From a bacterium (GTDB lineage Bacteria; Myxococcota_A; UBA9160; SZUA-336), in contig JAAELY010000452.1 of assembly GCA_024226335.1 (NCBI GenBank), positions 1 through 40,158 of the forward strand: a stretch of 40,158 nucleotides of DNA, in the 5' to 3' direction. The notes below the pieces were generated by a model. That model had not been told where the DNA came from. It ran no database searches and saw only the letters and a program-made list of their open reading frames with translations. Every line of letters starts with the position of its first letter. Within the stretch, counting starts at the first letter, position 1. Below, one piece after another: positions 16,391 to 17,199 of the stretch. A program made the position numbers and the translations under genes.

Positions 16391-16422
16391 TCAGCGCTCC
16401 TGCTCAGCGCTCCTGCTCAGCG
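16391..16422. repeat. Tandem 13-base duplication over the selenoprotein stop codon
   Basis: The 13-base unit TCAGCGCTCCTGC occurs twice in tandem (16391-16403 and 16404-16416), followed by a partial third copy to 16422. On the minus strand the unit encodes the last residues and stop of the selenoprotein (AEQER, TGA). One unit is therefore coding and the other repeats it just past the stop. It is a local replication-slippage duplication with no expected functional effect. Confidence 0.85.
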
Positions 16423-17132
16423 GACAGGTAGTTTCGGATCGCGTCTTCCCATTCGGCCGGGCGGAAGAACATGGGCCCCATGCCTCCCTGGTAGGCCACG
16501 CGACCGTCGCGTCCGATCAAGTAGAGACGCTCGGGCAAGGCGGCGTAGGCGCTAGTGACCGCGTTGTCCATTTCGTCGATCAGTGCGGGCATCTCGAGCG
16601 CCAGCTTGAGCATGCACGACTGTCCGACTTCGATGCGTTCATCCATCGACTGGTGCTGTCGTACGAGCACCGTGTCTTCCTCGTTTTCGGCCACCTGCCA
16701 GCCATCGGTCGGATGGATTTCCTTGATGTACACGACGTAGAAGTCGACCTGCTCGCGGTAGCGCTGGTAGATCTCGTTGAGGGACCCAGCCTGGGCCCGA
16801 AATGGCGGTCAGGTGTAGCTGCCGAAGATCAACCCGACGGGTCGTTTCCCGAAGTGTTGAGAGAGCGCGACGCTCGCGTCGTCCTGGGCGCCGTACCCCG
16901 GCAGATAAGACAGTTCGAAGTCGGGTGCGGGCGCGCCGACCTGCGCCGAACCGGGACCGGATTCGAGCATTTCCTGCATCGTTTCGAGTGCCTTGGGCCG
17001 GAACATTGCGTCCCGCAGGCGTTCCAGTGTCAGCCCCTCCATCTTCTCGCCCTCACCGGATTCGAGTGCGGCGAGCATTTCGTCCCGCGTCTTCGCGAGC
17101 ATTTCCAGGCTGGGTTTATCGGATGCGCTCAT
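16404..17132 (-). CDS. Selenocysteine-containing iodothyronine deiodinase-family protein (UGA read-through)
   Basis: This is one gene that conventional translation splits in two. From the ATG at 17130-17132 (GGAGGA six bases upstream) the frame runs 107 codons to an in-frame TGA at 16809-16811, then 134 codons to the TGA at 16404-16406, giving 242 residues with Sec at 108. Sequence on both sides belongs to the thioredoxin-fold deiodinase family. The active site reads LIFGSYT-U-PPFR, and downstream comes VVYIKEIHPTDGW with E138, H140 and W145, matching the YIxExHxxDGW motif of vertebrate deiodinases. The C-terminal half ends with LYLIGRDGRVAYQGGMGP. No signal peptide is seen. The native substrate is unknown and need not be iodinated; a thiol/selenol redox role is equally possible. 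The gene is divergent from a DHA2-type transporter. Confidence 0.9.
16781..16798 (-). promoter_or_regulatory. Candidate bacterial SECIS hairpin
   Basis: In the mRNA, GGG-CCCA-GGC-UGGG-U-CCC folds into seven base pairs with one bulged U and a 3-base apical loop whose first two bases are G. There are 17 bases between the UGA and the loop. Bacterial SECIS elements lie inside the coding region just after UGA, have a short stem, and have a G in the first two loop positions at roughly this distance. The fold was drawn by eye, without an energy calculation. Confidence 0.65.
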
Positions 17133-17199
17133 GGCCACTCCTCCGTCTTCTGATGCCTATAGTAGCCGTCCGGGTGTCGCGTCTGCTACCTGAAGGACC

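Follow-up and report, generated by a model that had tools for sequence, protein, structure and literature searches.

A predicted deiodinase-family selenoprotein encoded across an in-frame UGA in a bacterium of the Myxococcota_A

Deiodinase-like proteins with Sec or Cys were described in Sargasso Sea bacteria, where a redox function was proposed for them (Zhang et al. 2005, PMC1088965), and the family recurs in later surveys and a review [GOS survey, PMC2398784; PMC9312934; PMC13188914], with a UxxC motif given in reviews (PMC13188914, PMC9312934). In the literature searched, no bacterial member of PF00837 with an enzyme assay came to light. In the vertebrate enzymes the hormone pocket has been assigned to Phe258 and Arg275 of DIO3 (the latter Lys in DIO2) (PMC7506546, PMC11592359), and a proximal Cys recycles DIO1 and DIO3, the role of the distal Cys239 of DIO3 being unsettled (PMC9141512). 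For bacterial SECIS elements the bSECIS model gives a loop of 3-9 nt with G in the first two positions, a stem of 4-16 bp, a distance of 16-37 nt from the UGA and an energy of at most -7.5 kcal/mol (PMC13188914).

The window, that is, the whole stretch of 40,158 nucleotides analysed here (contig JAAELY010000452.1 of assembly GCA_024226335.1), carries a gene (Table 1) that almost certainly encodes a single 242-residue selenoprotein of the PF00837 deiodinase family; this degree of confidence applies to the identity of the protein and not to its substrate. ORF 1 and ORF 2 lie in one frame, with a TGA (16811-16809) and then 75 open nucleotides (16808-16734) between them. This layout, given in the preliminary description without a strand, is confirmed in coordinates and translation, with the correction that the gene is on the minus strand. 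The GGAGG sequence lies 7 nt upstream of the ATG at 17132, which is therefore the likely start, giving 242 residues and placing the TGA at codon 108. Counted from the GTG at 17138 the protein has 244 residues and the selenocysteine is Sec110; this GTG-start numbering is used below for the conserved residues (Ser107, Thr109, Sec110, Tyr137, Cys175 and the others). As had been proposed, LIFGSYT-U-PPFR and VVYIKEIHPTDGW occur in the joined protein, and standard annotation would yield two proteins of 109 amino acids. The 75 bases between the ORFs (16734-16808) contain the SECIS hairpin together with conserved coding sequence, and a two-ORF annotation would omit them. Automatic annotation splits the gene in two and conceals the active site.

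Table 1. Coordinates of the gene, its reading frames and its predicted signals within the window.
Feature	Position	Strand	Description
Gene for predicted Sec-containing deiodinase-like protein	16404..17132	-	242 aa, Sec108; ATG start at 17132, TGA stop at 16406-16404
ORF 1	16809-17138	-	109 codons, GTG start, TGA end
ORF 2	16404-16733	-	109 codons, GTG start
In-frame UGA, predicted to be read as selenocysteine	16809..16811	-	TGA in 82/82 nearest homologue copies
Post-UGA part of thioredoxin-fold domain	16407..16808	-	YIKEIHPTDGW loop, conserved distal Cys, cis-Pro position; PF00837 E 2e-26 alone, and conservation
Predicted bacterial SECIS hairpin	16782..16798	-	7-bp stem, GGC apical loop, 17 nt after UGA, -10 to -11 kcal/mol; synonymous conservation and covariation
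Shine-Dalgarno sequence GGAGG	17140..17144	-	7 nt before ATG 17132; read from sequence

The match of the joined protein to PF00837 (E 9.3e-34, 117 bits; the Pfam gathering cut-off is 27 bits) is far beyond chance, and the 134 residues after the TGA match the family when searched alone (E 2.2e-26). Both the Sec active site and the YIxExHPxDGW loop of the family are present. Mouse DIO3 and mouse DIO2 are matched by the joined sequence with E 5.5e-28 and E 5.8e-21 respectively, and the NCBIfam model NF038285 (deiodinase family protein) is matched over residues 60-234 (E 4e-57), although the score of 194 bits lies below the model cut-off of 250. An AlphaFold model of the joined protein, made with 57 sequences, has a pLDDT of 89.8; its best fold matches in the PDB are DIO3 (4tr3) and DIO2 (9h48), with ResA, Bcp and AhpE/peroxiredoxin folds following. 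Pfam matches to AhpC-TSA (E 4e-7; 30.4 bits, just above the cut-off of 26) and Redoxin (26.3 bits, just below the cut-off of 26.6) are far weaker than that to PF00837.

The gene belongs to the bacterial deiodinase-like selenoproteins reported in 2005, sharing with the Sargasso Sea-type proteins the PF00837 domain, Sec at the deiodinase active site, a SECIS element directly downstream and a bacterial host (PMC1088965). The earlier reading as a deiodinase-family selenoprotein is supported, none of the three refuting conditions named with it having been borne out, but its novelty is lower than had been supposed. The branch departs from the published description in its U-P-P-F site, in a distal Cys that hardly varies and in having no members with Cys in place of Sec. 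The published family has UxxC, whereas the site here is U-P-P-F-R without UxxC, with a conserved Cys 65 residues downstream; and where earlier surveys reported Cys forms (PMC1088965), the present branch is Sec-only among 96 distinct sequences.

Relatives were sought in 84,980 species genomes; 227 were found, and the best 80 of these 227 loci, comprising 82 gene copies, were read. TGA stands at the Sec site in every one of the 82 copies and TGC or TGT in none, with Acidobacteriota, Chloroflexota, Planctomycetota, Verrucomicrobiota, Armatimonadota, Poribacteria, Actinomycetota, Pseudomonadota and Myxococcota represented; the relatives include Myxococcota/Deltaproteobacteria MAGs, which makes Myxococcota the probable phylum of the host. 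Among class hits, 28 of 30 have a homologous frame with exactly one TGA. The Sec codon is kept in all 96 distinct close relatives, with Cys replacement in none; since one of the two search patterns was independent of the Sec/Cys residue, Cys forms would have turned up among the best 80 of 227 loci. The Cys forms that were seen are distant paralogues (L041, L136). In close pairs dN/dS downstream of the TGA is about 0.04-0.21, usually lower than the upstream value, and conservation among close homologues continues past the TGA. Judged from these substitution ratios, purifying selection acts on the part downstream of the TGA, in agreement with the preliminary description. Coding sequence is conserved both before and after the in-frame UGA, one of the marks of a bacterial selenoprotein gene.

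That the TGA is a real stop, leaving either a decayed gene or two separate short proteins, is highly improbable. Two 109-residue ORFs are indeed what standard annotation would yield, and a GTG is available as a possible start for ORF 2, but from that start it would begin inside the thioredoxin core and omit 75 conserved bases. Further against a stop are the retention of TGA at the same codon in copies from many phyla, the low dN/dS beyond it, the restriction of fixed synonymous codon choice to the hairpin, and the Sec machinery present in the genome. On these comparative grounds the UGA at codon 108 is shown to be a selenocysteine codon. Deiodinase-like selenoproteins are not a marine rarity, being spread across many bacterial phyla. 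The viral contigs searched hold no relative of the gene, and no neighbouring gene recurs consistently near the relatives; the neighbourhood offers no hint of the substrate or of the role of the resolving Cys.

The predicted hairpin (GGGCCCA-GGC-UGGGUCC) conforms to all four bSECIS rules, with a GGC loop, 7 bp, a distance of 17 nt and -10.1 kcal/mol. Folded as a single sequence, the hairpin region is no more stable than dinucleotide shuffles, and comparison was therefore used. The folding energy of the whole 45 nt against synonymous recoding was uninformative (mean z -0.6); what decided the matter was the search with the bSECIS model together with a test at the level of codons. The full bSECIS model is matched right after the UGA in 69 of 95 homologues; at other codons of these genes the rate is 15%, and after synonymous recoding it is 9%. 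Synonymous identity over codons +4 to +10 of the 12 nearest genes is 0.51 above expectation, the highest stretch of the gene (0.07 +/- 0.17 elsewhere); for instance, Ala is encoded by GCT in 12/12 (overall usage 11%) and Gly by GGG in 12/12 (overall usage 21%). Across subfamilies the hairpin occurs in two registers, and both carry compensatory changes well in excess of those in slid and shuffled controls [covariation 0.61 vs. 0.13 and 0.50 vs. 0.22; picking the sequences by register and for diversity favours pairing but affects the compensatory changes less]. With two covarying registers, the hairpin offers a clear comparative case of bacterial SECIS elements within one protein family.

The assembly (5.75 Mb, 556 contigs, 97% complete, estimated contamination 3.7%) contains selA, selB, selC and selD, all on contigs other than that of the deiodinase-like gene. 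By this gene content the host can make and insert Sec, as the preliminary description had expected. SelA scores 514 bits, SelB 301 bits with the SelB-specific winged helix, and SelD 336 bits, with a TGA at its catalytic position (GGUARKL); selA was found in 54 of 60 relatives. The tRNA family model gives scores to Ser tRNAs as well and produced hits in every control genome, so that for tRNA-Sec it is the ARAGORN call (SeC, anticodon TCA) and the score of 72.7 bits that carry weight. The SelD gene (L021, G000:C545:82897-83823) is a selenoprotein gene itself, with a GGACCTG-GTT-CAGGTCC hairpin after its TGA. A changed genetic code, in which TGA is read as another amino acid such as Trp, would equally leave the frame open, but it deserves next to no credence: TGA terminates about half of the likely genes in the window, the deiodinase-like gene included; relatives with a coded residue at the site have Cys, the residue that Sec replaces; and the genome encodes a tRNA-Sec with the anticodon TCA.

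The protein resembles vertebrate DIO1-DIO3 (structures 4tr3 and 9h48) in fold and in the position of Sec. Its Ser, Thr, Tyr, Glu, His and Arg residues have as counterparts the proton-relay and loop-anchor residues of DIO3 (PMC7506546, PMC11592359), and the whole DIO3 relay (Ser167, Thr169, Tyr197, Glu200, His202, His219 and Arg225) is present in the 16404-17132 protein, as is the loop Trp207 of the vertebrate enzymes. The position of His219 is Pro in most other bacterial members. Ser107, Sec110, Pro111, Pro112, Tyr137, Glu140, His142, Arg168 and Pro202 occur in 96/96 bacterial members, Thr109 in 95, Cys175 in 92 and Trp147 in 85. The hormone pocket is different: DIO3 Phe258 is replaced by Pro in 96/96 bacterial members, and Arg275 by Met in the 16404-17132 protein and by variable residues in the others, so that the pocket residues expected of a functional iodothyronine deiodinase are not kept. 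The proximal Cys168 of the vertebrate enzymes is Tyr here (Tyr or Phe among bacterial members), and Cys175, the distal Cys at a spacing of 65 residues downstream of Sec, falls at another alignment position than the distal Cys239 of DIO3. No N-terminal membrane anchor like that of the vertebrate deiodinases is apparent in the 16404-17132 protein, and the SECIS element lies within the coding region, whereas in vertebrate deiodinases it lies in the 3'-UTR. With peroxiredoxins and ResA-type oxidoreductases the protein shares the thioredoxin-like fold, Pro at the Phe258 position and a second redox Cys, but it differs from them in having the YIxExHPxDGW loop and no CxxC.

In the mechanism that we propose, SelB and Sec-tRNA would read the UGA under the guidance of the hairpin 17 nt downstream, with SelA and SelD from this genome taking part. 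The product would be a soluble thioredoxin/peroxiredoxin-fold reductase, with Sec108 placed where the first helix of the fold begins and probably activated by a Ser/Thr-Tyr-Glu-His network as in animal deiodinases. The selenolate would then attack an electrophile, for which a hydroperoxide is judged the most likely candidate, at about an even chance, and a halogenated aromatic the second, at distinctly lower probability. Oxidized Se would be resolved by the distal Cys175 as a selenenyl-sulfide, which thioredoxin or a small thiol may in turn reduce.

A natural role as a peroxiredoxin-like hydroperoxide reductase, with Sec peroxidatic and Cys175 resolving, is evenly poised between being right and wrong. 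It would account for the AhpC-TSA and Redoxin matches, the ResA, Bcp and AhpE fold neighbours and the near-invariance of the distal Cys at its spacing from Sec, but not for retention of the deiodinase-specific loop, which ordinary peroxiredoxins are not known to have. Reductive dehalogenation of iodinated or brominated aromatics by the same selenoprotein, as in animal deiodinases, is possible though rather unlikely. The deiodinase proton relay and the loop tryptophan are kept, and several relatives are from marine or Poribacteria MAGs, settings in which halogenated aromatics can be expected. The lack of any replacement of Sec in 96/96 is also as expected if Cys were far less active, and exchange of Sec for Cys cuts deiodinase activity about 1000-fold (PMC11592359). 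Against dehalogenation stand the loss of the DIO3 pocket residues, the Tyr or Phe in place of the proximal Cys of DIO1/DIO3 and the origin of many relatives from soil and groundwater. Deiodination of thyroid hormones themselves is unlikely. With the relay kept and the hormone pocket lost, what deiodinases did before thyroid hormone becomes directly testable.

A distinct Sec form of the family occurs in the same phylum, in 8-13 Mb genomes of family f17 (L130-L134, in G371, G342, G369, G297 and G262). It has an N-terminal hydrophobic stretch resembling a membrane anchor, lacks Cys175 and scores higher against PF00837 than the 16404-17132 gene. An origin of the animal deiodinases within the bacterial tree is possible: in a quick tree mouse DIO2/3 group with these f17 copies (SH-aLRT 87), but a tree with the bacterial proteins as a clade of their own withstands an AU test (p 0.69). 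The wider proposal, that a widespread Sec-only bacterial branch carries out Se-dependent reductive dehalogenation of environmental iodo- and bromo-aromatics with recycling by the distal Cys instead of the proximal one, and that this is the ancestral chemistry out of which the animal thyroid-hormone deiodinases were recruited, is speculative and probably incorrect in at least some part.

Two more deiodinase-like loci, with one TGA each, are found in the same genome. The second copy (L002, G000:C522:43918-44319) is of a different subfamily, common to Chloroflexota and Gammaproteobacteria, and has a perfect 7-bp hairpin with an AGUU loop after the TGA. The third (L003, G000:C256:12531-12782) has a Sec site, and its family match ends soon after; it looks internally deleted or frameshifted, by decay or by an assembly join. 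Elsewhere two Sec deiodinase-like genes of different subfamilies adjoin on opposite strands with their ends facing (L139, G281:C238:16400-17900), and a similar neighbour pair, its second copy without the Sec site, occurs on G012:C473. Tandem duplicates of Sec deiodinase-like genes less than 1 kb apart are found in a betaproteobacterium (L101) and an alphaproteobacterium (L112), each copy with its own TGA followed by a hairpin.
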